A stretch of DNA of 64,000 bases, taken from assembly GCA_937925855.1 (NCBI GenBank), contig CALAMO010000001.1, positions 62,001-126,000 of the forward strand, written 5' to 3'. The notes under the pieces were generated by a model. That model ran no database searches, was not told the origin of the DNA, and worked only from the letters and a program-made list of their open reading frames with translations. The DNA comes from an uncultured Thiotrichaceae bacterium. GTDB taxonomy: Bacteria > Pseudomonadota > Gammaproteobacteria > Thiotrichales > Thiotrichaceae. Shown here piece by piece: positions 28,069 to 43,205 of the stretch. Position 1 is the stretch's first letter, and each line of letters starts with the position of its first letter. The translations under genes and the position numbers were made by a program.

Positions 28069-29427
28069 TCACCGTCCTATCTTTAACAACTGACCGAACT
28101 GGCGAAATGCCAGAGTCTCTAACACAATGCCATTAGTGTTCGCTGTCAGCGCTTTATTCGGCAGATCATCAGCCTCATAAACCCCGGCGTACCAACCTAG
28201 CTCCGGGTCATGGGCCTGCGCAATACGCGCCATCATTTTTTGGGTATAGGCCGTTTCATACAGCATATGCCAACCAAAAACAGCCTTAGTACTCAGCGTT
28301 TTATAAGCAGCGGCATCCTGGCCGTCCTCTGTAATCGCGTTCCAAACTTTACCATCAGTAAATACCGTGTTGTAGACAAAATAAGGTGCCTGATCGATAT
28401 TATCTTCGCTCACCGCAGTCAAAATCCCCGTCGCCTCATAGCGCTTTTCCTGCGCCTGATACACGCGCCACGCTAGCTCGCGTGAAATTCGATCCCAGCC
28501 ATATTCAATGCCATCCAGAATGTAAGGCTCACTCACAACATAATTGTGCGCCTGAAACCGTTCAGGATCGCGGCTATCGGTGACGACCTCGATGCCATAA
28601 ATGTCGATAAAATTTACATAATCCAGATAATCCAACGCAACCGACACATCCGTTCCCATCAGGCTAAAGGATTTAGCCGCATACTCCTCGTAGCCTAAAC
28701 GACCTTCCTGCACGTAGTTGGTGCCACCATCAGCATTTAAATGTGTGCCGTACAACGTGCCCGCACGAATCATATTCGTTAACTGCCAGCGCTTAAGTAC
28801 CTGTTCTACGGCTGCCGTGTGCTGGTTGTAATGCCACACTAAAATATTAAACGGCACCAGTACCCGCCCGATGTCAATCGCCGACCAGCCAATACCGTTG
28901 GCTCGTGTCTTGTTTTTATAATCCACCATCGCCAGTGACTCGGTGTGGTAGACCTTATTCGGCAGCTGATTATCAAATAAAGCAATGGCAGCAAGCGAAC
29001 GTAGTACCGCTGCGACCCGCTGGTCAAACTCATCCTGCTGAATGATGCCAAGTCGCTGCGCAGCAATCACCGCCATCAGATAAGATGAGGTATCCCATAA
29101 AGTGGAGGACTGATAACCTTCCACTGAATTTACTAGGCCTGTTATTTTATTGGTATTATTTTCAAAGTACTTCCATGCTATCCTCGCCCACTGAAGCTCC
29201 TGTGCAGTCAATGGGCGCGGCGTTGTGACCTCCGCCCTGTCGGCGGAAGCAGCCACCTTTAACAGCGATACCCGCTGCCCCGCATCAGCCTTTTGACTAA
29301 GCACACCGGACGGCGTCACATCGACACGCTCTAAAGCTAATACCAGCGTAAACGCACTGATCAATCCAAACAGAAAGATCAAATGACTGCGCGCCCGCAC
29401 CAAGCCCTGTTTAACGCTCATAGTCAC
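28069..29427 (-). CDS. DUF3131 domain protein (envelope, polysaccharide-associated), copy A
   Basis: 452 residues with an N-terminal membrane anchor or signal helix (LIFLFGLISAFTLVLAL) and a DUF3131 domain from about residue 75 to the end. Conserved features shared with the second copy at 38.8 kb are SSTLWDTSSYL, GIGWSAIDIGR, VQEGRLGYEEY, DSRDPERFQAHNYV and AVSEDNID. The abundance of acidic and aromatic residues suggests an (alpha/alpha)6-type carbohydrate-active fold, but no catalysis is proven. It follows the GT2 synthase by 24 bases, the last gene of the leftward operon. Confidence 0.8.
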   Translation of the reverse strand: MTMSVKQGLVRARSHLIFLFGLISAFTLVLALERVDVTPSGVLSQKADAGQRVSLLKVAASADRAEVTTPRPLTAQELQWARIAWKYFENNTNKITGLVNSVEGYQSSTLWDTSSYLMAVIAAQRLGIIQQDEFDQRVAAVLRSLAAIALFDNQLPNKVYHTESLAMVDYKNKTRANGIGWSAIDIGRVLVPFNILVWHYNQHTAAVEQVLKRWQLTNMIRAGTLYGTHLNADGGTNYVQEGRLGYEEYAAKSFSLMGTDVSVALDYLDYVNFIDIYGIEVVTDSRDPERFQAHNYVVSEPYILDGIEYGWDRISRELAWRVYQAQEKRYEATGILTAVSEDNIDQAPYFVYNTVFTDGKVWNAITEDGQDAAAYKTLSTKAVFGWHMLYETAYTQKMMARIAQAHDPELGWYAGVYEADDLPNKALTANTNGIVLETLAFRQFGQLLKIGR

Positions 29428-29451
29428 CCCAATGATAATAGTTCATCGATT

Positions 29452-31272
29452 TCAGGCCGCCTCTAGCGTTTCGGGTTGCCAAAATGCCGCCATTACAATA
29501 CCGCTCAGCGCAAAAATATTATTCAGCCCCCAGAACACATTCACTAAGATGCCACCGGCAGAATAGTTTGTATTGCCAAGGAGCAAAAACTGCACCGCCG
29601 CATACAATAAGCCCAGAACTGTCAGCCCAATAATCGCGGCCTGCGGCCAGACCAAATGCAGAAAATTACCTTCCTGCCGATCTTTCGGTGTGACTGGAAA
29701 CTTAATTTGCTCCCCTTTCAACACCGTCCATATGGCCTTTAAATTTGTCGGAAAGAATGATAAATAACTGGCCTTAGACCGGTAACCCGCGATGCCCCAG
29801 GTACCCATCATGAACGCTAGTTCCATCGCAATGAGAAACGGTAAAATATGAATGAAGAAATCGGTGGTATAAGCACTGACCGGCGCCACGGCGCTAAACA
29901 AATAAACCAAGGGTGCGATTAAGAACAAAGCATTCCAAATGCCCCCTAAGTACGACCAAACGGTGGTGGCATACATCAACCGCTGCCCAAAGCTTAAGCC
30001 TTTACGAAAGACCGGATTATCATTTTTAGCAATATCCAGCGTGCCACCCGCGTACTTAAAACGCTGTACCGACCAGCTTAGTAAATCCTGCGGTGAAAGC
30101 ATTTTTGATTCCACCTCAGGATGCAGAACGGACTTCCAGTTACGGCCCTGATCGGCATGCAGCACCAGTGAGGTATAAATATCTTCCGACACATGGAAAC
30201 GATACGGCGTAAACTCTTCTTCGTGCGCAATATTATGCCGCACCATCGACACCAGCTGATCGTCCAGCGCTTGCTCACCCGTCATTTTCTTCAGCGCAGC
30301 GGCCTTGGTGTTCACCTGGCACTCAATATTATCGGAATAGCTTTTTAAAGCGGCTTCCATCACCGCATCGCGCCGATGAATCGACCCCGCACCACAGCAA
30401 AAAGACGCATTAACCCAGTTTCTTCGCCGCTGAATAATGTCATAAAACATTTTAGGCTCGTTCACAAACGGATCATCGCCCAGCATCACCGGGCCAATCA
30501 GCCGTTCTATCCCCTTGCCCAACCAACGTCCTGGCGTAGACAGCCAGCATTCCAGTGCCTGTGGCAGGCGCCGCCCTTCCGGCAGGTCAAAAAACCATTG
30601 TGGCGTCTGCACCCAGGCCACGTCAGGGTCACGAAAATAGCCCATGGTGTGTTCCAGCAAAGTGGGAAAAGGCCGAGTATCCGCATCACAAATGACGATG
30701 AAATCCCCACAGCTCTGCTCCATCGCATTGCGCAGATTACCCGCCTTAAAACCTATATTGTTATCGCGGGTAATGTAGGCAACGCCCTCTTCTTCAGCCA
30801 CCTGCTGCATCGCGGGCCGCCGCCCATCGTCGAGCACATAGATCTCAAGATCAAGGGCATGCGGATAGGTCATTTTCTTTGCGTCAATCAGACTCAGTCG
30901 CACCAACTCAGGGTCTTCATCATAAGAAGGAAAGAATACATCCACCGCTAGCAGCCGATCCTCACCGTACAGTGTTGCCGTCACCTCCGCCAGAGTGGCC
31001 GGTGCCGGGCGCTGTGGATAATCGTCCACCTTCCATAAATTGAATACAAACAGAACGAGACCGATATAAGCCGCCGTTTCTGCAAATGCTAGTGGAATGG
31101 CATACCACAGCGCTTCCATATTGAGTGATTCCGTCCAGCGCCACCACAAGTACCAGGCCCCCAGACTTAAAGCAACCACGGCAAGATACTGCCAGATAGC
31201 CTCAACCGTGGCCGAATAGGCTAGCGGTGGTTCTGGTTTGCGGTGTTCAAAACGATCGAAGTAGAAAGCCAT
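29452..31272 (-). CDS. Cellulose-synthase-like GT2 glycosyltransferase
   Basis: 606 residues. Transmembrane helices flank a processive GT2 domain with the ordered motifs DDG (148-150), DAD (196-198), SFCCGAGSIHRR, SED (362-364) and QRFKY (403-407). The last replaces the canonical QxxRW of cellulose synthases. There are two N-terminal helices and four or five C-terminal ones. Unlike BcsA it stops without a PilZ domain, so direct c-di-GMP activation is not expected. It probably makes and extrudes a beta-linked polymer. Co-directional STAS, kinase and phosphatase genes upstream suggest control by partner switching. Confidence 0.88.
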   Translation of the reverse strand: MAFYFDRFEHRKPEPPLAYSATVEAIWQYLAVVALSLGAWYLWWRWTESLNMEALWYAIPLAFAETAAYIGLVLFVFNLWKVDDYPQRPAPATLAEVTATLYGEDRLLAVDVFFPSYDEDPELVRLSLIDAKKMTYPHALDLEIYVLDDGRRPAMQQVAEEEGVAYITRDNNIGFKAGNLRNAMEQSCGDFIVICDADTRPFPTLLEHTMGYFRDPDVAWVQTPQWFFDLPEGRRLPQALECWLSTPGRWLGKGIERLIGPVMLGDDPFVNEPKMFYDIIQRRRNWVNASFCCGAGSIHRRDAVMEAALKSYSDNIECQVNTKAAALKKMTGEQALDDQLVSMVRHNIAHEEEFTPYRFHVSEDIYTSLVLHADQGRNWKSVLHPEVESKMLSPQDLLSWSVQRFKYAGGTLDIAKNDNPVFRKGLSFGQRLMYATTVWSYLGGIWNALFLIAPLVYLFSAVAPVSAYTTDFFIHILPFLIAMELAFMMGTWGIAGYRSKASYLSFFPTNLKAIWTVLKGEQIKFPVTPKDRQEGNFLHLVWPQAAIIGLTVLGLLYAAVQFLLLGNTNYSAGGILVNVFWGLNNIFALSGIVMAAFWQPETLEAA

Positions 31273-31338
31273 TATTATTTTAATTCAGCGTTTGTCTTAC
31301 ACAATTAGGCAGGGCAGCAGATCAGCGCCCCATTTATT

Positions 31339-31776
31339 TTACGCCAGCTGCTTACACAGGTGTAAATGATTGCCATCCTGGTTACATTCATAGTGCAGGG
31401 AATCTGCCAACATGCGAATCAGCCCCAGGCCCCACCCCCCCTCTGGCAGGCTCTCAGGTTCTGGCAGCAGCGCATCGTCGCCTGCACTTCCCCGCTGGAG
31501 CTGCGCCGCTGGAATCGGATGGCCACGGTCAGAAATAATCACTTTCAGCTGGTCATCCGGGTTGCATTCAACCCGTACGTGCACGTCGTGACCGGTCTCA
31601 TTATCGTAGGCATGCTCAATCACATTGTTCACCGCTTCAACCAACATCAGTTCAATTTGGCCGACTTGTTCCGTCGGCAAGTCCAGTTCCTGGCCAATGC
31701 CACGCACCGCACTGCCTAACAGCCGCACATGCGCTAATTGGCTGTCTATAAACAGACGAATATTATAGGTTGACAT
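31339..31776 (-). CDS. RsbW/SpoIIAB-like serine kinase (anti-sigma-type ATPase)
   Basis: 145 residues forming a single HATPase_c_2 domain: N-box EAVNNVIEHAYDN, G1 box ISDRGHPIP, G2 box GGWGLGLIR. In partner switches these proteins phosphorylate a STAS antagonist on Ser/Thr and bind a sigma factor or another target. No sigma factor gene is nearby, so the target may be something else. The STAS gene lies 143 bases upstream and the matching phosphatase upstream of that. Confidence 0.88.
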   Translation of the reverse strand: MSTYNIRLFIDSQLAHVRLLGSAVRGIGQELDLPTEQVGQIELMLVEAVNNVIEHAYDNETGHDVHVRVECNPDDQLKVIISDRGHPIPAAQLQRGSAGDDALLPEPESLPEGGWGLGLIRMLADSLHYECNQDGNHLHLCKQLA

Positions 31777-31919
31777 CGCTTTCTGTGCCCCGTTGTACCA
31801 CGCACAGACTGCTGCTGTGGTGTTTGTGTGTGCCTTGCTGATCGGTATGGCTACTCCGTCGCTAACCGCTCAATTCATACGCAATAATGATCACCCGTGC
31901 CTCGGACAGATCCCTAGGT

Positions 31920-32261
31920 TCAGGCAGTTGCCATCATATCCAGCGCACTATCAGCATCAGCAGCCATTTGAAACACCCGATCCATTCGGGTCAGTTTAAA
32001 TAACTCCGCCACAATGCCATGTGCACCAGCAATCACTAAATCACCGCTGCCGCCGACCATTTTAAGGATACTTACGACCGCCCCCAGACTACTACTATCC
32101 ATAAATTCGACGGCGCTGACATCAAGAATAAGGCGCTGGGTGCCTGCCCCAATCATTTCACTCACCCTGAGGCGTAACTCCGGCGCATTGGCGGCATCAA
32201 GCCGAGGTTCTAATACCTTTAACACGGTCAGTTCTTCATGGGTATGGACTGATAGCTTCAT
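31920..32261 (-). CDS. STAS-domain protein (anti-sigma factor antagonist type)
   Basis: 113 residues, a single STAS domain. The phosphorylatable site is intact: VEFMDSSSLGAVV, with Asp55 and Ser56-58. Dephosphorylated STAS proteins bind their RsbW-like kinase and release its target. Comparable free STAS proteins (SypA in Vibrio fischeri, HsbA in Pseudomonas aeruginosa) control biofilm polysaccharides or motility. Gene order here (phosphatase, STAS, kinase) makes a complete switch. Confidence 0.88.
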   Translation of the reverse strand: MKLSVHTHEELTVLKVLEPRLDAANAPELRLRVSEMIGAGTQRLILDVSAVEFMDSSSLGAVVSILKMVGGSGDLVIAGAHGIVAELFKLTRMDRVFQMAADADSALDMMATA

Positions 32262-32319
32262 TAGTAGCTCTCTTTGGCATTATAAATTATTTTTATAAAT
32301 TGAATATTAAATCGTTATG

Positions 32320-33537
32320 CTAGCAAAGATCAACTATCAATAACGAAAGGTCATCAGGCGGGCTAACATCAACAGCATTTAACGTCCAAAGATTACAGAA
32401 TTCATTAACGCTCTCATCCGCACTTAAATGCGCAGTATCTTTTAAAGTTTCACCTAAATCAGCAGGCGTGTACAGAGTATTGTCTGGTTTAGTCAATTCA
32501 AACAAACCATCCGAGAATAAGGCCAGACGTGTACCCACCGGAAAGTCACAGCTGACAGACTCGTACTCAGCTTGTGGAATGAGTCCTACCGGAAAGCCGG
32601 TACACTCCAATTCTTGCAATTGTTGTGTCTGCGTGTTTAACAGGAAGGGTTTGGGGTGTCCGGCCTGAACAAAATGCAGCCGCTGCTGCGTGGTATCTAC
32701 CACACCAAGGATCATCGTAAAATAGTGCTCACTGAAATCAAGCACCTCCTGCAAATACGCATTGAAAGCCGTTACCATTTGACTCAGTTGGGGTGCCACC
32801 GCTGCGGTGGGCTGCAAACGGTCACGCAGACTAAGACCGGCAGAAGTCAACAAGTTACTCAGGTACATCGAGAGTAATGCAGACGATATACCGTGACCAG
32901 ACACATCAACGGTATAAAATAAGCTACGCTGGCTATCTAACGGGAAATAATTAAACGTATCGCCGCCGATGAAACTAGCCGGACGATAAAACCACGCGAA
33001 GTCTAAAGCGCCCATGCGCTTCTGGGCGGGCAACAGTCCATTTTGTAAGGCTGCGGCATGGCGCAGATCCTGTTGAATTTCATCCTGCGTCTGCTGCAAC
33101 GAAGCGTTCATCTGCCCGAGGTGGCGGTTTTGCAACGCCAGAGTGCGTTCTAGCTCAATCACCCGCTCAGCAGCGCGCAGCCTAACTGCAATTTCATCGG
33201 TTTCAATCGGCTTATTACTGAAATCATCTGCGCCGGCATCCATACCAGCGATTAAATTGAGTTTGCCGGACATGCCTGTTAACAGAATTATGTAAATATA
33301 GTGCGGTAAATCAGCCTGCCTGATACGCCGACACAAGCCAGGGCCATCCAAGCGCGGCATCAACCAGTCGGTAATGACAACCTGAAAGCGTTCATGTTGC
33401 AGGCAGTCCCACGCGATTTCACCATCTTCAGCCACCGTAACCTCATGACCTAGGAGCGTCAGCGTACGTTTCATGACCAAGCGCATATCGAGCGCATCAT
33501 CAACCAGAAGTATTTTCATATTATTGTTATTAGTCAT
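32320..33537 (-). CDS. Response regulator with PP2C (RsbU/SpoIIE-type) phosphatase output
   Basis: 405 residues from the ATG at 33537; an ATG at 33549 or one six codons later is also possible. N-terminal REC: ILLVDD, phospho-acceptor Asp57 in VITDWLMP, LLTG and NKP. A coiled linker (about 125-165) leads to a PP2C domain with FIGGDTFNYF, DVSGHGISSALLS and FSDGLFEL, which carry the metal ligands. The layout equals Pseudomonas HsbR without its C-terminal kinase; here that kinase is the separate RsbW-like gene. Phosphorylation from the divergent Hpt/kinase genes would set phosphatase activity on the STAS protein. Confidence 0.9.
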   Translation of the reverse strand: MTNNNNMKILLVDDALDMRLVMKRTLTLLGHEVTVAEDGEIAWDCLQHERFQVVITDWLMPRLDGPGLCRRIRQADLPHYIYIILLTGMSGKLNLIAGMDAGADDFSNKPIETDEIAVRLRAAERVIELERTLALQNRHLGQMNASLQQTQDEIQQDLRHAAALQNGLLPAQKRMGALDFAWFYRPASFIGGDTFNYFPLDSQRSLFYTVDVSGHGISSALLSMYLSNLLTSAGLSLRDRLQPTAAVAPQLSQMVTAFNAYLQEVLDFSEHYFTMILGVVDTTQQRLHFVQAGHPKPFLLNTQTQQLQELECTGFPVGLIPQAEYESVSCDFPVGTRLALFSDGLFELTKPDNTLYTPADLGETLKDTAHLSADESVNEFCNLWTLNAVDVSPPDDLSLLIVDLC

Positions 33538-33696
33538 GTGCGCGATCAAATATCACTCACAATATACCGCTCCGTGGCCTGCGCTTCACTTTACTGAATG
33601 CTTGGCTTATAAAAGTTTTAGCATTGGTTCAGCTTATGATAGTTTATTGTCAATTAAAATAATTAATGACAATTGGTACTTCCGAGAATAATAAAA
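33538..33696. promoter_or_regulatory. Divergent control region of the sensing/polysaccharide locus
   Basis: The gap between the leftward phosphatase gene and the rightward Hpt gene is AT-rich. It holds TTGTCA at 33647-33652 and TGACAA at 33667-33672, an inverted pair with a 14-base AT-only spacer, ending 24 bases before the Hpt start. It could be an operator or part of overlapping promoters. No FNR, NsrR or NorR site is evident by eye. Confidence 0.45.
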
Positions 33697-34056
33697 ATGG
33701 TTCCTAACAAAAGCGCAGTCATTGACCAGGAAACCTATGAGCTCCTGCGGGATCTGATGGGCGAGGAAGGCTTTGAAGAAATCCTCAGTTTTTTCTGCTC
33801 AGATACCCAGCAAGCCATTCAAAATTTACAGCAGGCTGTCGCCGAACAACAAGCCGAATATGTTGGCGGCATTTGCCATAAGCTGAAATCCAGCAGCAAG
33901 TTAGTGGGTGCCAATAACATGGCAGAACTCAGCAGCACGCTAGAAGCTTATACCGAGCATAAAAACCAAGCAGAAGCGACCCATCTCGTCCAGCAACTCG
34001 AAGCCGAATTTATCCGGGTCAGGGTGCAAATTGAACACCTAACCGCTATCAGCTGA
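33697..34056 (+). CDS. Histidine phosphotransfer (Hpt) protein
   Basis: 119 residues from the ATG at 33697; an upstream TTG at 33673 is unlikely. A helical Hpt domain with the phosphorylatable His61 in ICHKLKSSSKLVGA. The sequence matches HptB-like shuttles that pass phosphate from hybrid kinases to a response regulator. The hybrid kinase two genes downstream and the REC-phosphatase divergently next door are the obvious donor and acceptor. Confidence 0.9.
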   Translation: MVPNKSAVIDQETYELLRDLMGEEGFEEILSFFCSDTQQAIQNLQQAVAEQQAEYVGGICHKLKSSSKLVGANNMAELSSTLEAYTEHKNQAEATHLVQQLEAEFIRVRVQIEHLTAIS

Positions 34057-34079
34057 ATTAAAAAAATAAGAGGTTAATC

Positions 34080-34625
34080 ATGAAGGGCGTGGTATTTACA
34101 GAATTTCTTGAAATGGTAGAGGATAAATTCTCTGCGGAGATGGTCGATGACATTATTGAGGAGGCCGATCTTGCCTCAGAAGGCGTTTACACCGCCGTCG
34201 GCACCTATCCACATGAGGAAATTGTAAGCTTAGTGAGCTGCCTATCTCAACAAACTGGCATTGAAGTGCCGGATTTAGTCAAAATTTTTGGTGAGCACCT
34301 ATTTGGCCGATTTGCGATTTTATACCCGGATTTTTTCACCGCAGAAACAGATGCCTTTGACTTTCTCGAATCAGTCGAAACCTATATTCACATTGAGGTA
34401 AAAAAACTGTATCCCGATGCGCAGCTGCCAACCTTTCATACTTGGCGGGAAGGTGAGCATACGCTCATTATGGATTATCGCTCGCCACATCCTTTTGCCA
34501 CCCTGGCAGACGGCTTGCTCAAGGGCTGCCTAGCGCATTTCCAGGTTGATGCTGAAATTACTATGACCGACCGCTCGCAAGGTCAGGGCACCGCAGCGGA
34601 ATTTCGGATTGTTAAGGCCGCTTAA
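34080..34625 (+). CDS. H-NOX haem-based gas sensor
   Basis: 181 residues beginning [18 protein letters not shown], the standard start of the haem-NO/O2-binding domain. The proximal haem ligand His104 is present in [15 protein letters not shown]. The YxSxR haem-propionate motif reads Y133-R-S135-P-H137, so the Arg is replaced by His. The domain stands alone, as in bacteria where H-NOX modulates a neighbouring histidine kinase. The start follows AAGAGG by six bases; the stop overlaps the kinase start (TAATG). Expected role: NO sensing, possibly O2, feeding the phosphorelay. Confidence 0.92.
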
Positions 34626-36433
34626 TGGACGACATCACGCGCTGGCAGCGTCGCCTAGAACGGGAAAAGAAAGCCCGTAAGCAGGCGGAAAAACTGCTGG
34701 AAGACAAAAGCAAAGCGCTGTTCACTGCCAATCAAGAACTGCAAACGCTGGCAGATTCGCTTGAACAGGAAGTGGTCAAGCGCGTTGCAGAATTAAGCAT
34801 TGCGCGTGACCAAGCACTGGGGGCTAACCGCGCCAAAAGTGCCTTTTTAGCCGCCATGAGTCATGAAATCCGTACGCCGATGAATGGCATAATTGGCATG
34901 GCTACCTTGCTAAGCGACAGCACGCTACAAGACACCCAGAGTGGGCAGGTTGAAACCATTTTGAAATCTGCGCAGTCCCTATTAGTCATCATCAATGACA
35001 TCTTGGATATTTCACGCTTGGATGCAGGTAAGCTAGAGCTTATCCAAGAACCTTTTCAGCTCAGTGAAACTCTCCCTTCTCTGATGGAAACGCTCGGCAT
35101 TATTGCTGCAGAGAAACAGCTGGCGCTCTTTATCATTATCCAACCCGACGTGCCGGAGTGGATGATTGGCGATGCGCTGCGGATTCGGCAGGTGCTGATG
35201 AATCTGATTGGTAATGCGATTAAATTCACTCAGCAGGGTCAAATCACCCTGCGTATCTCTCGCTCCCTGCAACACACAAACGCCGTCTATTTCGCCGTCG
35301 AAGATTCAGGTAGTGGTATCCCTGCGGAGAAGATACCCACACTGTTTAATGCCTTTAGCCAGCTAAGCAAATACGATCAATACAATAACAGCGGCAGCGG
35401 CCTGGGGCTGGCTATTTCGCGTAAGCTGGTCAAGTTGATGCACGGTCAAATTGGGGTGCACAGTCGCGTCGGAATAGGGAGTACTTTTTGGTTTGACCTG
35501 CCCATCGGGCAGATCGCCCACAATCGCGCTATGCTGCCACACTACCCAACGCAGCGCAGCCTGCTGGTGATTGAAAATCAGTTACACCGCCAGCTCATCG
35601 GTGAACAATTACAAAGCTGTGGCGTGCAGTGTGTCATGCTTGACTCCGTGCCAGCGTTGCAGCAGGCCTTGGCAGGCGATTCACAGCAGGCGGACTGGCT
35701 ATTTTTTGATGATAGCCCGCTGGATGACACGCAGGCACAGCAGCTTGTTCAGCTGCTGTCGGTACAGTATCCCGCCCGGATTAACCGAGTTTGCCAGTTG
35801 CATAACCCTTACCCGGCACCAGAAAATCGCTACCCCGCCAGTGCGCAGTGGCATAAAGTCTGCAAACCGCTGACCTATGAAAAATTGCTGACCTTATTCA
35901 ATCCTGTCAACCAAAGCGCAGCCGATACGCTCCCCGTAAAACCAGACAGCAGCCCAATACATACACAAGCAGCGGCCAAGAATAGCGTGGGCGCGGGTAA
36001 TCAGTCTAAGCAGTCACCGCCTCCCCCAGGCCCAAGTGAGGCAACAGCCAAGCGGATATTAGTGGTCGAAGATCACGCGATTAATCGCATGGTGGCCAAA
36101 GGATTATTAGGCAAACTGGGACATTCAACGCAGTTTGCCCATGATGGACAGGAGGCGGTCACCCTACTTGAAACCGATAAAACCTTTGACCTTATCCTAA
36201 TGGATATCCAGATGCCGATTATGAATGGCATAGAAGCAACCCAGCAAATCAGACAGCGCTGGCCTACTTTTGAGGTGCCGATTCTGGCCCTAACGGCCAA
36301 TGTGATGAAAGGCAACGAGCTAAGCTACCTCCAAGCAGGCATGAATGACTTTATTGCTAAACCCATACAAATCAAGCAACTCGAACAGATTATTGATAAA
36401 TGGTGCGCGCCCGCCACAGCGGTCAGTGCATAA
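34625..36433 (+). CDS. Soluble hybrid histidine kinase (HnoK-like)
   Basis: 602 residues with no transmembrane segment. A basic coiled coil (1-65) is followed by HisKA with His80 ([13 protein letters not shown]), HATPase ([28 protein letters not shown]), a degenerate receiver-like segment (about 310-435) lacking a clear phospho-acceptor, a Ser/Pro linker, and a full REC domain with Asp527 ([11 protein letters not shown]). It overlaps the H-NOX gene by one base, which strongly suggests that H-NOX is its sensory subunit. Phosphate would pass His80 to Asp527 to the Hpt His61 and on to the REC-PP2C protein. Confidence 0.92.
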
Positions 36434-36467
36434 GCACCCCTTAAAACAAAAATAATAGAGCACAATA

Positions 36468-36992
36468 ATGACAACGGCTATTGATGAAGCACCCCCACAG
36501 CTAAATGCAGGCACCGGGCGCATTGGTATCATGCTAGCTGCGGCACTCCTACCCCTTATGCTGGCACTGGCACTGAGCGGCCTCTTTCACCTAGCGGGCG
36601 ACTATACGGTCAGCACGCACGTAGCTGCCAAAACCACCTTTGCCAGCATCACTTACCCCCGCCGTGATACGCCAGTGGGGCAGACGTTCACCGCCAAGGG
36701 GGAGCTAACGCAGCTGCCGGCTGACACCAGCGCCTATCTCATGGTTAAGCGCGATGAACGCTATTGGCCGAAGAAAGCGCTCGGCAATAAGATGGGCGCG
36801 TGGTCACAGAGCATCAAAGAAACGATTAGGAAACGCAGCAAGCTCTATTTGGTGGTGCTAGCGCTAACCGCGCAGGATAAGGCACTGATCGATCAATGGT
36901 ATGCCGACAGTAAAGCCAGCGGGAAGTATCCGGGGATTACGCAGTTTACGGCCGCGCAGGAAATTGCGGCCATTGAGGTAAAACAACAATGA
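36468..36992 (+). CDS. Small single-pass membrane protein of unknown function
   Basis: 174 residues: a cytoplasmic N-terminus of about 20, one transmembrane helix (IMLAAALLPLMLALALSGLF), then a periplasmic domain with TYPRRDTPVGQTFTAKGEL and DTSAYLMVKRDERYWPKK. The periplasmic part looks like a small beta-rich module, perhaps carbohydrate- or partner-binding, but I recognise no family. It lies 34 bases after the kinase gene and overlaps the acyltransferase by four bases, so it is part of the same operon and probably works with that enzyme. Confidence 0.65.
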   Translation: MTTAIDEAPPQLNAGTGRIGIMLAAALLPLMLALALSGLFHLAGDYTVSTHVAAKTTFASITYPRRDTPVGQTFTAKGELTQLPADTSAYLMVKRDERYWPKKALGNKMGAWSQSIKETIRKRSKLYLVVLALTAQDKALIDQWYADSKASGKYPGITQFTAAQEIAAIEVKQQ

Positions 36993-38143
36993 ATAATTTG
37001 CGCATGAATTGGCTGGATGCTGCGCGTATTGCGGCAGCTTTTTGCATTATCGCCATCCATTCCACTACAGACCCACAGGGCAAGCCTTTTCCGTTTGCCC
37101 ACGAAGGTGAACGTCTGTTTACCGTCTTATTCAGAACCACCGCCGAACTCGCCAGTACCGAATATTTCATTCTAGTATCATTGTTTTTATTGGCCTTCAA
37201 AATGGAGCGCAAACCCGCTAGCTTTGGTGCAACCATGCGGCTCCAGGCCAGGCGCTTATTAGTACCCTTTGTGTTCTGGACGCTATTCTATGCTTTTTTT
37301 AAACTCTTAAAGGCTAGCCAGTTTGGTTACATAGAAACCGCGACAGCCGCTTTGTTCAACCCGCTTAACTGGCTGGACTATTTCGTGCTCGGTACATCGC
37401 AATACCATATGCACTTCCTGCCCACGCTGTTTATCCTGATCCTGTTTTACCCGCTGTATAAACTGGCGGCAAAATACCCCGTGCTCGGCTTAGCGCTCAT
37501 CCCACTGCTGTTTATGCGTGATTTCTTAGCGGGCTGGCTATGGGCTAATGTTGCTAACTATGACGTGTTGGAGTACCTGGCGCGGGCAGTGAAAATTCTG
37601 TGCTATGTTGGCTATGGCATGGCCGCTTATGCTCTGTTTGGCTGGTGGAAATCGCAGGTAGATCGTGAACTTTCCCTGCGTGTTTTTGCGTTCACCGGAT
37701 TTGTGCTGAGCCTAATGTTTATGGTCAAACTAATTCAGGCCACCACAATTATTCAAAGCGGTGATTTCGGCCTGCGCAGCGGCGCTTTTTATTATGCGCA
37801 CTACCTTATTCCAGTCTGCTCACTCCTGTTGTTCATGAGCTCACAGCATTTCCGCTGGCCGGATAAGCTGTCCCTGTGGTCGAAATACACGTTCGCCATG
37901 TATCTGGTACATCCCGCCGTGATTGATGTGTTTGACATTCTGACCCACAGCATCGAACTGCCGGTCTGGCAATATACGCTGGGTAAATATAGTTTCGCGG
38001 CCAGCGGCTCACTGGCGCTTGCATGGCTGCTGGGCCGGATTATGCCGCTAGCCTGGAGCGTAGGTCTTGGGCCATTACCTTTTTCAGCAGCTTATCGCCG
38101 GTTAGCACAGCGCACGCCGCTAAAAGCAGGCAGCGCGGCTTAG
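36989..38143 (+). CDS. Acyltransferase-3 family membrane protein
   Basis: 384 residues with about ten transmembrane helices. The N-terminus WLDAARIAAAFCIIAIHS carries the conserved His of the acyltransferase-3 family, and an R residue cluster follows (RLQARRLLVPFVFW). The family O-acylates (usually acetylates or succinylates) polysaccharides and lipids at the inner membrane. Position next to a GT2 synthase locus suggests modification of the exported polymer. Confidence 0.87.
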   Translation: MNNLRMNWLDAARIAAAFCIIAIHSTTDPQGKPFPFAHEGERLFTVLFRTTAELASTEYFILVSLFLLAFKMERKPASFGATMRLQARRLLVPFVFWTLFYAFFKLLKASQFGYIETATAALFNPLNWLDYFVLGTSQYHMHFLPTLFILILFYPLYKLAAKYPVLGLALIPLLFMRDFLAGWLWANVANYDVLEYLARAVKILCYVGYGMAAYALFGWWKSQVDRELSLRVFAFTGFVLSLMFMVKLIQATTIIQSGDFGLRSGAFYYAHYLIPVCSLLLFMSSQHFRWPDKLSLWSKYTFAMYLVHPAVIDVFDILTHSIELPVWQYTLGKYSFAASGSLALAWLLGRIMPLAWSVGLGPLPFSAAYRRLAQRTPLKAGSAA

Positions 38144-38229
38144 TTTAGCCCTATAAAAATAACACTTAGTCGATCACTGTACCGGTCAACTGAGCACTCA
38201 ACTGACAGACCAACTTACGGGTCAATTTT

Positions 38230-38781
38230 ATGATACTGCGCATACTACAAGTTGCGATGTTTATCTTACTGGTATGGCTGACCTTTCAGTTCAGCCTACT
38301 CAACAGTCAAGTCAATACGCTACAGCACTTAGGCCAGCAACAGCAGCTGCTGCTAGAGAGCACCCTCCAAGCGGCCGATAAGGACAACGGCAAACAGCGT
38401 CATGAATTCGCTGAATTAACCACTCAGCTCACCAAAATGACTCAGATCCAGCAAAAAAATACCGGCGCTGAACAACAACTGAAAACCCTCCAGGCCAAAC
38501 AAAGCAAACTGAATGACTTACGCAAGGCCTATATTTTAGTGCTGGAAGCGGAAGCGGCCAGGGCCTTAAACGATGCCAAAACCGCCCAGGCGCGCTTAGC
38601 CGCCGCTAAAACCTTGATCTGGAAAGCTGGCAGTCATTACCCCGCACATAAAAAATCGCTCCAAGGCTTGATGAAAAGCATCGACCTGACGCTCGGTGCC
38701 TGGAAACGCAAGGATCTATCGAAGCACACGCAAGCCATCTACTCCGTTATCGCACAAGCCCTTAAGCAGCAGGAAAAATGA
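38230..38781 (+). CDS. Coiled-coil protein with N-terminal membrane anchor
   Basis: 183 residues: an N-terminal hydrophobic helix (VAMFILLVWLTFQFSLL), then a long Gln/Lys/Ala-rich coiled coil (about 30-120) and a helical C-terminus. No recognised family. It is followed two bases later by the second DUF3131 gene. It may be a periplasmic scaffold of the export machinery. Confidence 0.65.
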   Translation: MILRILQVAMFILLVWLTFQFSLLNSQVNTLQHLGQQQQLLLESTLQAADKDNGKQRHEFAELTTQLTKMTQIQQKNTGAEQQLKTLQAKQSKLNDLRKAYILVLEAEAARALNDAKTAQARLAAAKTLIWKAGSHYPAHKKSLQGLMKSIDLTLGAWKRKDLSKHTQAIYSVIAQALKQQEK

Positions 38782-38782
38782 T

Positions 38783-40363
38783 ATGGATACCCCACAGCAT
38801 ACACCCAAGCCACCGTTGCGGCGCTTCCAAGCGCTGACCCTCGCGCTGTCAGTCGTCTTTGGCCTGTGCATTGCAGGCGGAATTATTTATCTGGCAAACC
38901 ACAGTGAACAAGCCATGGCCGCCGCCAACGAGTATCCCCTGCGCTATTTGTTAAAGCAGCCCCACTCCGCCAGCACCACACTCACGGGTAATGGCTGCGC
39001 TACCGCCGCGGACGCTTTGGCCTCAGACGCACCGCACTGCCTGCAACGTAAAAAAGTTGATGCCTGTCTCGCCGGAGGCAAGGCGCTCTGTGAAGCGGAC
39101 CGTGAAATTGCACGCATCGCTTGGATTTACTTTCAAAATAACTATAACCCGGAAACAGGCCTGTATAACTCAGCGAACCGCTATACCTCAACCACTATGT
39201 GGGACACCGGTTCCGCCATTGCGGCAACGCTGGCAGCCAAAGACTTTGGCTTCATCGACCAAAAAACCTTTGATGACCGCATTATGGCGATGTACAAAAC
39301 CTTAAACACGATGCAACTCTTCAACAAAGAGGCTCCCAATAAGGCGTACAACACCAAAACAGCCAAAATGGTGGATTACCGCAACAAAGCCGCACCGGAG
39401 GGAATTGGGGTCTCCATTCTGGATCTTGGCCGCCTAGTCTCATGGCTTAATACCCTACAGTGTATGCATCCCAAATATAAAACGGCCACGCGAACCACTA
39501 TCGAACGCTGGGATATGTCCCGCTTATTGAAGGACGGCCAGATGTATGGCCTAGCGCGGGATGAAGTCAGTAAAAAAATTAAAGTACTCCAAGAAGGCCG
39601 CCTGGGATATGAGCAGTATACCGGCAAAGTCTTTCGTAATCTGGGCTATGACATGCATATCGCAGCCAGTTATAACAATAAGCACCGGCGCAACGTCAAT
39701 ATAATGGGCGTACCCGTCGCGCATGACAGCCGCGACCCGCGTGAATTTGGTGCCAATAACTACGTGATTACTGAATCGTATACCATGGATGCGACAGAAA
39801 ATGGCTTAGATGGTGAAAACCGCCCACTCCTGCGCAATATCTTTGCGGTACAGAAAGAACGTTGGCAGCGCACAGGCATTGTGACCGCCGTTTCAGAGGA
39901 TAATATTGATCGTAAGCCCTGGTTTCTCTACAACAGTATTTTTAATGCGGGCATCCCCTGGAGCACCATCAACCCGCGCGGCACTCGCTTTAATCACTTA
40001 AAGACCGTATCGACTAAAGCCGCGCTATCACTCGCGGTCATGTACCCGGAGGATGAGTATAGCCAGGTATTAATGGAAACCATTGAAAGTGCCTACAGCC
40101 TTAAAAAGGGCTGGTACTCCGGTGTCTATGAAAACGGGCTTGGCTATAACACCACGGCGACCGCGAACACTAACGGCAATATTATGGCGAATATGCTGTA
40201 TAAAAAGTATGGCAATTTCTATGCGTTATGTCATGGATGTCAACGCATGGTGCACTTGAAGAACATGCCGATCAAAGATAATAAAGTCTGCGATGTGTGT
40301 GAGATCAGCACGACCAACAGCACAGCAGACCCAACTCAGTATGCAGGGAATAAAAAAGAATAA
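38783..40363 (+). CDS. DUF3131 domain protein, copy B, with C-terminal CxxC...CxxC tail
   Basis: 526 residues from the ATG at 38783. An N-terminal transmembrane helix (LALSVVFGLCIAGGIIYL) and a Cys-containing spacer precede a DUF3131 domain parallel to copy A: STTMWDTGSAIA, GIGVSILDLGR, LQEGRLGYEQY, DSRDPREFGANNYV, AVSEDNID. After the domain comes a short module LCHGCQRMVHLKN...VCDVC, a possible zinc ribbon or disulphide knot not present in copy A. The 3' end overlaps the next gene by 23 bases. Confidence 0.8.
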   Translation: MDTPQHTPKPPLRRFQALTLALSVVFGLCIAGGIIYLANHSEQAMAAANEYPLRYLLKQPHSASTTLTGNGCATAADALASDAPHCLQRKKVDACLAGGKALCEADREIARIAWIYFQNNYNPETGLYNSANRYTSTTMWDTGSAIAATLAAKDFGFIDQKTFDDRIMAMYKTLNTMQLFNKEAPNKAYNTKTAKMVDYRNKAAPEGIGVSILDLGRLVSWLNTLQCMHPKYKTATRTTIERWDMSRLLKDGQMYGLARDEVSKKIKVLQEGRLGYEQYTGKVFRNLGYDMHIAASYNNKHRRNVNIMGVPVAHDSRDPREFGANNYVITESYTMDATENGLDGENRPLLRNIFAVQKERWQRTGIVTAVSEDNIDRKPWFLYNSIFNAGIPWSTINPRGTRFNHLKTVSTKAALSLAVMYPEDEYSQVLMETIESAYSLKKGWYSGVYENGLGYNTTATANTNGNIMANMLYKKYGNFYALCHGCQRMVHLKNMPIKDNKVCDVCEISTTNSTADPTQYAGNKKE

Positions 40364-43205
40364 CGCCACTCAGTCGCTGAAGGCTTGTTTTAACACGCTG
40401 GCAGGTGTGTTAATGGTTGATCAACTCGCACTACAGGGTTCTGTTCATGCAGCAGAGCAGCCTGTTGTTGTGCCTGCTGTTTCTGCCGATAGCGCCTCCC
40501 CCAGCAGCTATCGAGTACGCCGTGGTGACACCCTGCTGCGCATTGCTAAACGCCTCAATCTTCCGACCCAGCACTATTACCAGACGGCACTGGCGCTGTT
40601 CCTTAAAAACCCGCAGGCCTTTATTGACTATAATCTGCACCAGCTGATTGCGGGTAAAACACTGCGGCTGCCGCAACCGGCAGAGATCAATGCGATCACC
40701 CTGCCGCAGGCCCAAAAAATTATCCATGCAAAAACCTTGAACAGGATAGGCCGCAGCCTCGCCGCTACGGCAACACCTGTCGCCCCGCCCAGTCCGTTAG
40801 CACAGACTTTACTCAGTGAGATAAAAAGCGCTAGCGCTCAGCAACATCAGCTCCAGCAGGCATTAGCGACGCCAGCAGAACAGATGCAGGCCCGCAGGCA
40901 CTATCTGGTAAAGCTACAGGCGCAGCTACAGCAGCTAGATGACAATATTAGCCGTTTTGAGCAGCAGCAAGTGATTCACCAGCGCCAACTGCGTCAGCTG
41001 CGTACCCAACAACGCGCGCAGCAGGCCGCAAAGCGCCAGCTGCAGCAAGCACACCAGCAGCTCAGCGCCGCCGTCGCCAGAACGCGCTTCTTGCAGCCCA
41101 GAGCGCTGAGCTGGCCGCCAGCCTCGGCTCAAACTGGTTTTTTCCAACGCATCGCCAAACTAAAGCGCCAGCAGCAGCCGCTATCGCCGTTGTTAACACA
41201 AACTGAGGCGCTACACTGTGCCGCTGACCTACCCGCTGCGGCGCAGGTATTACAGCAGTTTTTCGCTATTTCTGCCCCAGGTACCCAATGGCCGGATGAA
41301 CAACTCGGCCAGCAGCCGCAGCGTGCCATCTTACATGCTGGGTCTATGGATATCATACTGGCGACGCTGCATCGTACGATTCAACGTTTTCCGACACTCC
41401 GCCAAATTACGGAACGGGTTGCGCTACAGTGGGATTATTGTGAGCTGACGAATGCAGGCAGCGGTTTTTACGATTTAAGCCTGAACCAAGACGGACTACA
41501 CACCCGTCAGGCGGCACTCCAAGTGCCTCTGAAGTGGCAGGGCTTCCATCACTGGGGCTTTGGTAAAAACCCCGCAAACAATGCGCACCGCTATATCCCC
41601 ATGCTGTTAAAAGCGCGTGAACCCTACCATGCTTACGAGCTATTTTTACACCAGGTCTACCGTCGGCAGTGTTTTCCGCACCCTGCTGATGGCAAAATTT
41701 ACACTGAAATTAGCACAGAACGCGCACTAGGCAGAACCTTATACCCCATTGCGGTAACGGCGCGTAGTAAGGCTTACCCTTATCACTGGCAGCCAATATG
41801 TGACCTACCACAAATCAACACTCAGCCCAAACGGCTCTGGCAGGCTCAGCGATTACAACATTCGCAGACCAAGCTGACCCAAGCACAGCAGCGCATCACC
41901 GCACTGAATACTCAAATTACACGACTCGAACAGCAGAACCAACAGCAGCAGCGGGCTTTTCAAGGACTCAATCAACAGATCGAACAGGAAATTGATGCCC
42001 TTAAAAAAGCCGAGCATCTCAGGAAAAACCGACTTAAAGCCCAATACGCAGTGCTAGCCAAATTAGCACAGTTACTTGCTGATAAAAAAAGACAGCTTTA
42101 TCCTGCACTGCTGCACACACAAATGGCAATAGCGCAACAGCAGGCGCAGAAGGAACGCCTGCTCGTCGAGACAGCGCTACACAACGCGGCGCTGGCTATG
42201 CAGGTACACACCCTGGCTGAACACAAAGCACACTCACAAAATCAGTTGCAAAATCAAACGCAGCAGCAAGTACCCATACCGGCACAACAGACACCGCACA
42301 GCACCAGAAGGTATGCCCGCCCCCAGCAGAACAGCAAGCGTGCAATAACGCTCAGTCCCAATAACACTCGCTCAGAACCACCGCAGCCGCTGTTGGGTAA
42401 CGTGCAGAAGAGTGCAATCAGCTTCAGCCCTGATAGCACTGCTGAAGCATTCCGCCACCCCAACACTCCCGCCAAGGTGAGCACAAAAACAGATGGCACG
42501 CCGCCTGTGGCGCTCGACCCGCTATTACGGCGACTCAGCAGCACGCCTCGGATTCATTTTTCCGCTATTCCAACGAACACAGACAGCCGTCAACAGCCAA
42601 AACCGCTTAATAAAAAGGCCAGCCCAAAGAAACGTAATATCACCGCCACTGCGCTGTATACCTTACCCCTTTCTGGCGACAAGCCTTTCGGCAAACTCAA
42701 TCTGAGCTGGGCACCCAAAACCAACTGGTTTGTGCGTGGGTCGGCTAAATACGACAGCGAGCAAGGCTTTACCTATTCATGGGGCATGGGTTACAGCGAT
42801 TGGCGACCAGGGACAACTTCAGCGCAACTGAATAATTGGGGGCCGATTAAACCCGGTGAGGGTTTAGACCTAAGCAATGCGGTGTTCAGCATCAGTCACA
42901 AAGTCGGCGCTGAATGGTTAAAAAAGAATAAACTATCGCTCGCACTGGGGTTGAGTAAGCCGCTTAGTGGTGATCTGAGCGTAAACGCTACGCTACAGTG
43001 GAACCCCATACCGAACTGGTATTTTCGTACCACTGCCATCCAAAAACTGGCGGGCGGCCCAACCAAATGGAGCTATGGTTTTGGCCATTTTAATTGGCGG
43101 CCCGGCACTTGGCGACTTGAATACGCGAATTATGCCGATAACCGCTACCCGTTTGATAATTTTCATGAAGGTGCAATCACCTTGAGCCGCGCCTGGGCGT
43201 TTTAG
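40341..43205 (+). CDS. Envelope protein: LysM, Gln-rich coiled coils and C-terminal beta-barrel-like domain
   Basis: 954 residues from the ATG at 40341. A signal peptide ends near GSVHAAE. A FimV/LysM-like domain follows (YRVRRGDTLLRIAKRLNLP). Then come a Gln-rich coiled coil (about 165-265), a Cys-containing globular middle, a second coiled coil (about 515-620), a Gln/Pro linker, and a C-terminal region of about 180 residues with alternating aromatic strands. That region has two related units (YSWGMGYSDWRPGT and WSYGFGHFNWRPGT) and a terminal Phe (RAWAF), as in outer-membrane barrels. I infer a peptidoglycan-binding, outer-membrane polysaccharide export protein; no named family is claimed. 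Confidence 0.7.
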   Translation: MQGIKKNNATQSLKACFNTLAGVLMVDQLALQGSVHAAEQPVVVPAVSADSASPSSYRVRRGDTLLRIAKRLNLPTQHYYQTALALFLKNPQAFIDYNLHQLIAGKTLRLPQPAEINAITLPQAQKIIHAKTLNRIGRSLAATATPVAPPSPLAQTLLSEIKSASAQQHQLQQALATPAEQMQARRHYLVKLQAQLQQLDDNISRFEQQQVIHQRQLRQLRTQQRAQQAAKRQLQQAHQQLSAAVARTRFLQPRALSWPPASAQTGFFQRIAKLKRQQQPLSPLLTQTEALHCAADLPAAAQVLQQFFAISAPGTQWPDEQLGQQPQRAILHAGSMDIILATLHRTIQRFPTLRQITERVALQWDYCELTNAGSGFYDLSLNQDGLHTRQAALQVPLKWQGFHHWGFGKNPANNAHRYIPMLLKAREPYHAYELFLHQVYRRQCFPHPADGKIYTEISTERALGRTLYPIAVTARSKAYPYHWQPICDLPQINTQPKRLWQAQRLQHSQTKLTQAQQRITALNTQITRLEQQNQQQQRAFQGLNQQIEQEIDALKKAEHLRKNRLKAQYAVLAKLAQLLADKKRQLYPALLHTQMAIAQQQAQKERLLVETALHNAALAMQVHTLAEHKAHSQNQLQNQTQQQVPIPAQQTPHSTRRYARPQQNSKRAITLSPNNTRSEPPQPLLGNVQKSAISFSPDSTAEAFRHPNTPAKVSTKTDGTPPVALDPLLRRLSSTPRIHFSAIPTNTDSRQQPKPLNKKASPKKRNITATALYTLPLSGDKPFGKLNLSWAPKTNWFVRGSAKYDSEQGFTYSWGMGYSDWRPGTTSAQLNNWGPIKPGEGLDLSNAVFSISHKVGAEWLKKNKLSLALGLSKPLSGDLSVNATLQWNPIPNWYFRTTAIQKLAGGPTKWSYGFGHFNWRPGTWRLEYANYADNRYPFDNFHEGAITLSRAWAF

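Follow-up and report, generated by a model that had tools for sequence, protein, structure and literature searches.

A putative H-NOX phosphorelay and partner switch clustered with the genes of a candidate polysaccharide machine in the Thiotrichaceae

Why should the genes for a likely gas sensor, a phosphorelay, a partner switch and a polysaccharide synthase lie side by side in one bacterium? The question is raised by positions 28069–43205 of a 64,000-nucleotide stretch of DNA (the window) from an uncultured Thiotrichaceae bacterium, where gene calling and Pfam searches recovered two divergent gene runs. The left run holds, in this order, a REC-PP2C phosphatase, a STAS protein, an RsbW-like kinase, a GT2 synthase and a DUF3131 protein. 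The right run holds a histidine phosphotransfer protein (Hpt), an H-NOX sensor, a hybrid histidine kinase, a 174-aa protein, an acyltransferase-3, a coiled-coil protein, a second DUF3131 protein and a LysM/barrel protein. A sequence-only reading of this DNA had proposed that all of these belong to a single system, in which a gas seen by H-NOX sets polymer synthesis. We hold with moderate confidence that these genes make up a single polymer machine, regulated by a phosphorelay sensing nitric oxide (NO) and by a partner switch; it probably makes a surface glue or sheath that is turned on or off by NO.

The signalling parts are encoded on both sides of the control region. On the forward strand, a stand-alone Hpt (33673..34056; Pfam E 3e-11; true start probably ATG 33698) is followed by H-NOX (HNOB; 34080..34625; Pfam E 2e-39), which overlaps by one base a soluble hybrid histidine kinase (34625..36433; Pfam) with the architecture coiled coil-HisKA-HATPase-REC, in which Pfam recognises neither a sensor nor a membrane domain. 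On the reverse strand lie the REC-PP2C phosphatase of the SpoIIE type (32320..33549; Pfam), the STAS switch protein (31920..32261; Pfam E 3e-17), whose residues 55–58 form the phospho-acceptor motif D-S-S-S, and the RsbW-like serine kinase (HATPase_c_2; 31339..31776; Pfam E 7e-25). The serine kinase and the phosphatase are separate genes (31339–31776 and 32320–33549) rather than a single polypeptide. The divergent intergenic region (33538..33697) measures 160 bases from the left ATG at 33537 to the right ATG at 33698, and 178 bases if the left run starts at 33519. Gene calls, Pfam and start-codon positions thus uphold the two divergent runs with a shared 160-base region that had been read from the letters, and strong Pfam E-values do the same for the Hpt, H-NOX, hybrid kinase, acyltransferase-3, REC-PP2C, STAS, RsbW-like, GT2 and both DUF3131 assignments.

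All signalling active sites are present in the window proteins, and they are conserved. His69 and Lys72 of Hpt are invariant (26/26 sequences), as are the H box, N box and REC aspartate of the hybrid kinase in the 16 sequences aligned. The REC aspartate and the PP2C motifs GGD, D-S-G-H-G, S-D-G and D-D of the phosphatase, whose metal-binding residues are intact, occur in all or all but one of 30 sequences. The N, G1 and G2 boxes of the RsbW-like kinase are conserved (N box in 28/29), and D-S-S of STAS is found in 29/29 family sequences. A search of the window genome, whose assembly is 97% complete, found the SpoIIE domain once, in REC-PP2C. HATPase_c_2 gave one full match (87 bits), the others scoring below 30 bits inside larger open reading frames (ORFs), and of two Hpt domains the locus encodes the sole free-standing one. 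With one SpoIIE domain, one full HATPase_c_2 and one free Hpt, the assembly leaves the proposed chain little choice of other partners, which fits the wiring that the earlier reading had drawn.

Is the arrangement more than an accident of one genome? A survey of 63 Thiotrichaceae genomes found H-NOX in 33, DUF3131 in 32 and both in 29. In 27 of these 29 the distance from H-NOX to DUF3131 was 2.3–15.4 kb; in the other two the genes were on separate contigs. The co-occurrence corresponds to a Fisher p of 2e-10, a descriptive value that ignores shared ancestry. Outside the family, 40 stretches of about 20 kb around H-NOX genes, read with the same profiles, contained no PP2C, STAS, RsbW, GT2 or DUF3131, and in ten non-family genomes with H-NOX and a substantial DUF3131 match the two genes lay far apart or on different contigs. 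The best named relatives of GT2 belong to uncultured Thiotrichaceae, Thiothrix, Leucothrix and Cocleimonas. The synteny of signalling and polymer genes that had been predicted for relatives is retained in five or six genera, with variable gene order; recurring in this way, the arrangement is far beyond chance.

The ways in which gene order varies are informative. The hybrid kinase adjoins H-NOX in relatives. Genomes of the Thiolinea-like and Thiothrix type have Hpt, H-NOX and the kinase divergent from REC-PP2C; those of the Leucothrix-like and Cocleimonas-like type carry H-NOX and its kinase at the opposite end, past the first DUF3131 gene. Despite this relocation, a weakly scoring Hpt still adjoins REC-PP2C in the Cocleimonas-like loci L068 and L072, and Hpt also adjoins REC-PP2C in L057 and L076, where the H-NOX-kinase pair is absent. 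In the genomes of the latter two loci (G068 and G023, respectively), REC-PP2C, STAS and RsbW form a single co-directional run with the right-arm genes from the 174-aa protein to the LysM/barrel protein, and this run, together with the synteny, sustains the earlier claim of one linked system. Lineage f65 (L082, L087, L089) has the polymer genes from the two arms in one contiguous stretch, in the order GT2, first DUF3131, coiled-coil protein, second DUF3131, LysM/barrel protein. Partner switch, GT2 and DUF3131 also occur together without H-NOX in Rhodobacteraceae, other gammaproteobacteria and a myxobacterium; this core is older and wider than the association with H-NOX.

Two reduced loci were also seen. 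A single-contig genome of the Thiothrix group (G077, locus L048) retains REC-PP2C, STAS, NTP_transferase, Hpt, H-NOX and the kinase, with RsbW fragmented and DUF3131 absent. In a genome of the window's own genus (G007, locus L062), Hpt, H-NOX and the kinase stand as a free trio with the other parts not nearby.

Which signal would enter the chain? The closest solved structures to the window H-NOX are 6ocv (E 1e-43), the H-NOX of Vibrio cholerae and its closest solved relative, and the pair 6bde/6bdd, of which 6bde is a Kordia protein. The proximal haem-ligand His104 is present and is kept in 28/31 relatives. The YxSxR motif is changed: it reads YRSPH, with the arginine replaced by histidine as in 19 of 31 aligned sequences, while the tyrosine and the serine are invariant. 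By sequence, the fold assignment is secure, a protein with YxSxH may still hold haem, and a role as NO sensor is inferred. The position of the distal tyrosine is presumably occupied by a leucine (Leu142), as placed in our own hand alignment. The window H-NOX is free-standing and adjoins a kinase gene; O2-binding H-NOX proteins possess a distal tyrosine and occur as fusions with chemotaxis domains (PMC8738867).

A second sensor is found in ten relatives, mainly Thiothrix, where the locus also houses a FIST protein and its kinase, encoded on the opposite strand in the interval from REC-PP2C to STAS (Pfam FIST at L064:8688-11515, with homologues in L040, L045, L047, L049, L051-L054 and L061). NosP, the other type of NO sensor in bacteria, has this domain (PMC12570481), which makes this a candidate second pair of the NO-sensor type with putative haem and NO binding. 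The pair is a feature of relatives only, since a search of the window genome found no FIST. Genome G074 lacks DUF3131, yet its FIST-kinase and H-NOX-kinase pairs are near neighbours. The earlier reading had left the ligand as NO or O2; the free-standing H-NOX beside a kinase and the FIST pairing favour NO. Other loci have other inputs: in the myxobacterium Hyalangium a hybrid kinase with HNOBA, GAF, REC and Hpt domains (L030:14408-17044), at a locus with GT2, DUF3131 and a partner switch, is possibly an independent NO input, and L025, L093 and L095 have PAS kinases carrying their own Hpt. The sensor looks exchangeable among loci, with NO recurring.

At the other end of the chain, STAS itself may be the output. 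A classical switch works by titration of an anti-sigma factor by STAS, which is useless without that factor. In lineage f65, however, a STAS gene without RsbW and PP2C stands directly before GT2. Fusions of STAS to NTP_transferase occur in three genomes (L090:14161-15627 and L091:13484-14995 by Pfam; L092:14184-16022 by homology), where RsbW and PP2C are absent, the phospho-serine motif is lost and AT3 (acyltransferase-3), GT2 and DUF3131 adjoin the fusion. Of the six STAS proteins without RsbW, four lack the serine and a fifth lacks the aspartate before it, whereas the serine motif is kept in all of the approximately 31 that have an RsbW partner. The persistence of STAS without RsbW, with the D-S-S site mostly lost, suggests that STAS is the output, as has been proposed for SypA and HmpV, the targets of which are described as unknown (PMC8256260).

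The polymer genes begin with GT2 (29452..31272, reverse strand; Pfam), which aligns with BcsA (7lby; phmmer E 2.8e-39) up to BcsA residue 687 and then ends, so that PilZ is absent. The LDDG, CDAD and SED sequences, which correspond to the D, DxD and TED-like motifs, are conserved among 54 homologues. However, QRFKY stands in place of QxxRW in 53 of the 54, and GT2 should therefore not be called a cellulose synthase. The first DUF3131 protein (28069..29427, reverse strand; Pfam E 4.7e-145) has an N-terminal membrane anchor and an (alpha/alpha)6 glucanase-like domain. Whereas a sequence search against solved structures returned nothing useful for DUF3131, a Foldseek search with its AlphaFold2 (AF2) model (mean predicted confidence, pLDDT, 89.6) succeeded; the best folds were putative glucoamylases, beta-1,2-glucanases and cyclic beta-1,2-glucan synthase (CGS). 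On this model, DUF3131 is predicted to have a glucanase fold of the GH144/CGS type, at about 8–14% identity to GH144 beta-1,2-glucanase and cyclic beta-1,2-glucan synthase domains. In agreement with the fold match, many genomes contain ORFs of about 2,850 aa, the size of cyclic beta-1,2-glucan synthases, to which the DUF3131 profile has a weak match over some 90 residues.

On the right, the remaining genes are all on the forward strand. A membrane-anchored 174-aa protein (36468..36992), whose homologue precedes the acyltransferase in relatives, is overlapped by four bases by the start of the acyltransferase-3 membrane protein (36989..38143; Pfam E 1e-21). A membrane-anchored coiled-coil protein of 183 aa (38230..38781), whose homologues precede the second DUF3131 gene in relatives, is followed by that gene (38696..40363; Pfam E 2e-123; coding part probably from ATG 38783). 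Neither the 174-aa nor the 183-aa protein had a significant match in Pfam. The C-terminal end of the second DUF3131 protein carries CxxC...CxxC, a zinc-ribbon-like feature that is odd for an expected periplasmic protein. The last gene (40293..43205) encodes a LysM-like, coiled-coil protein with a C-terminal outer-membrane barrel. Of the two features first given to it, the barrel is borne out by an AF2 model (residues 770–970, 12 strands, pLDDT 91), for which the best folds include a de novo 12-strand barrel and the KdgM porin; LysM was not called by Pfam and is seen by eye near residues 72–125.

From these parts we infer the phosphate flow, the direction of control, the STAS target and the polymer as follows. 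Without NO, the soluble hybrid kinase would autophosphorylate and pass phosphate to its own REC domain, then to the free Hpt and on to REC-PP2C. Phosphorylated REC-PP2C would dephosphorylate the STAS serine, and free STAS would activate the PilZ-less BcsA-like GT2, via the synthase itself or the supply of sugar nucleotides. NO-bound H-NOX would inhibit the kinase; the RsbW-like kinase would then rephosphorylate STAS, and synthesis would stop. Trimming or transfer of the glycan in the periplasm would fall to the DUF3131 proteins and its decoration to the acyltransferase, and at the outer membrane the LysM/barrel protein would hold it or let it through. A polysaccharide for adhesion, rosettes or a sheath is the probable product. 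In V. fischeri, HahK is inhibited by HnoX and biofilm is favoured by phosphorylated SypE (PMC12369376); by analogy, NO would be expected to turn off the polymer in the present case, with the sign of its effect uncertain.

Several observations weigh against this account. NO has opposite effects among NosP systems of different species (PMC12570481), and in Pseudomonas aeruginosa it is phosphorylated, not unphosphorylated, HsbA that favours biofilm (PMC6482189). The STAS domains of the fusions and of lineage f65 are weak matches (23–59 bits); with scores this low the orthology of orphan STAS is uncertain, and the argument from it is suggestive only. A promoter scan gave 18 sites against 17.0 (sd 4.7) in shuffles, which is no excess, and an alignment of the shared control region with those of relatives gave no strongly conserved operator, though the divergent arrangement is retained. 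The pairing is broken in seven family genomes, four with H-NOX but no DUF3131 and three with DUF3131 but no H-NOX. In the window genome NirS is absent and NirK is below the cut-off, so that self-made NO by these enzymes is not supported; NO would have to come from outside or from another enzyme. NirS is present in several Thiothrix species (PMC8570282).

How, then, would free STAS reach the polymer? One tentative answer is that PilZ-less synthases of the cellulose-synthase-like type form a family that has lost the c-di-GMP gate of PilZ and is gated by direct binding of unphosphorylated STAS in its place, with interchangeable sensor kinases (H-NOX, FIST, HNOBA, PAS) acting via Hpt. If this were true, a partner switch would regulate an enzyme post-translationally instead of a sigma factor. 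An action on sugar-nucleotide supply, in which the target bound and activated by free STAS is not the synthase but a nucleotidylyltransferase supplying it, seems unlikely. It would explain the STAS-NTP_transferase fusions (L090, L091, L092) next to AT3, GT2 and DUF3131, as well as the NTP_transferase gene that most Thiothrix copies, and the unrelated gammaproteobacteria L080 and L081, have between STAS and RsbW. However, no such gene lies between the two in the window locus or in the relatives L060, L061, L063 and L079, and a fused STAS that has lost its phospho-site is no longer a switch. We similarly doubt that the partner switch acts on transcription or lifestyle by way of a sigma or anti-sigma factor encoded elsewhere in the genome, with the polymer genes as one output of several. 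The locus has no sigma factor, several lineages have the switch genes next to GT2-DUF3131, and the f65 STAS, even without RsbW, still directly precedes GT2; this has to be set against the fact that RsbW-like kinases are frequently anti-sigma factors and that HsbR-HsbA works through FlgM and RpoS (PMC6482189).

The remaining alternatives concern the input and the linkage. That H-NOX senses O2, or the redox state without haem, is improbable. The V. cholerae H-NOX in its haem-free form responds to oxidants (PMC8738867), and the lack of NirS and of NirK above the cut-off in the host would suit such a ligand, but the window H-NOX stands alone beside a kinase and not in a chemotaxis fusion, it presumably has Leu142 where O2 binders have the tyrosine, and FIST, from the other NO-sensor family, is paired with H-NOX in ten relatives. 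Least probable is that two independent operons are neighbours by chance: a divergent arrangement does permit separate control, yet linkage was rearranged and still retained across genera in 27/29 genomes, single co-directional runs exist in G068 and G023, and linkage is lacking in all 40 regions outside the family.

How new is a regulated polymer machine of this kind? The earlier reading held that the known parallels are separate, which is not true of all of them: the V. fischeri chain HnoX-HahK-SypF-SypE-SypA already unites NO sensing, phosphorelay, partner switch and polysaccharide (PMC12369376). As here, H-NOX stands beside a hybrid kinase, and, as proposed here, the signal passes through an Hpt and a REC-PP2C sets a STAS protein with a polysaccharide as output (HnoX-HahK-SypF-SypG/SypE-SypA-syp; PMC12369376; PMC8256260), and unphosphorylated SypA is the active form (PMC8256260). 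In V. fischeri, however, the genes are dispersed, SypE combines serine kinase and phosphatase in one protein where two genes are found here (PMC8256260), and the DNA-binding regulator SypG has no counterpart found in this locus. The NosP-NahK-HptB-HsbR-HsbA chain of P. aeruginosa likewise joins an NO sensor, there of the FIST type, to a kinase, a free Hpt, a REC-PP2C and a STAS protein, with NahK transferring phosphate to HptB (PMC11784011; PMC6482189). It differs in that HsbR includes its own kinase domain, and the outputs are FlgM/FliA, RpoS and HsbD and not a neighbouring synthase (PMC6482189).

For the machinery itself, parallels are partial. The SYP polymer machinery is not a GT2-DUF3131 set. 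GT2 resembles BcsA in its catalytic domain and membrane helices, but besides the missing PilZ and the QRFKY motif there is no BcsB, C or Z among its annotated neighbours. The sfz stalk cluster of Zetaproteobacteria, also a GT2-based polymer locus in attached bacteria, was considered as the known home of this machinery and rejected, as the DUF, the phosphatase and STAS are not in its description (PMC8250860). In the literature searched, subscription journals not covered, DUF3131 is nowhere more than mentioned, and H-NOX is not mentioned among the matches listed for the host genera. The logical steps are not new, given the V. fischeri precedent; new is the compact clustering of sensor, relay, switch and polymer genes, together with the PilZ-less BcsA-like synthase, the predicted glucanase-type fold of DUF3131, the modelled 12-strand barrel, the FIST pair in relatives and the STAS without RsbW.

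The locus is flanked by housekeeping genes (PhoH, YbeY and CorC on the left; M48 peptidase, MFS and SSB on the right), and Rfam and tRNA searches of the 64-kb window gave no matches. Thiothrix copies have a GH2 enzyme between RsbW and GT2. In L061:13713-15621, which is the gene also contained in L031, GT2 is split over two overlapping frames by a frameshift or an assembly error. Beside another GT2-DUF3131 locus, a 331-aa protein with weak similarity to the phospholipase A1 barrel adjoins a 1620-aa protein with 46 RTX repeats (L080:12804-18807), and a HYR and Ig-like repeat protein with a GH26 domain (L087:3-3227) lies upstream of a GT2-DUF3131 locus.

For the question of what STAS acts on, the locus encodes candidate targets next door, namely the synthase and, in relatives, the nucleotidylyltransferase, and the question is directly testable because the phosphatase, the full RsbW-like kinase and the free Hpt each occur once in the genome. 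The modelled glucan-processing fold is a first functional guess for DUF3131. More widely, a PilZ-less synthase with a partner switch is common to gammaproteobacteria, Rhodobacteraceae and a myxobacterium. The Thiotrichaceae include filamentous sulfur bacteria, and those of the Thiothrix type form rosettes and cause fouling and bulking in wastewater plants; for their attachment polymer, the scheme proposed here would be the first regulatory model.

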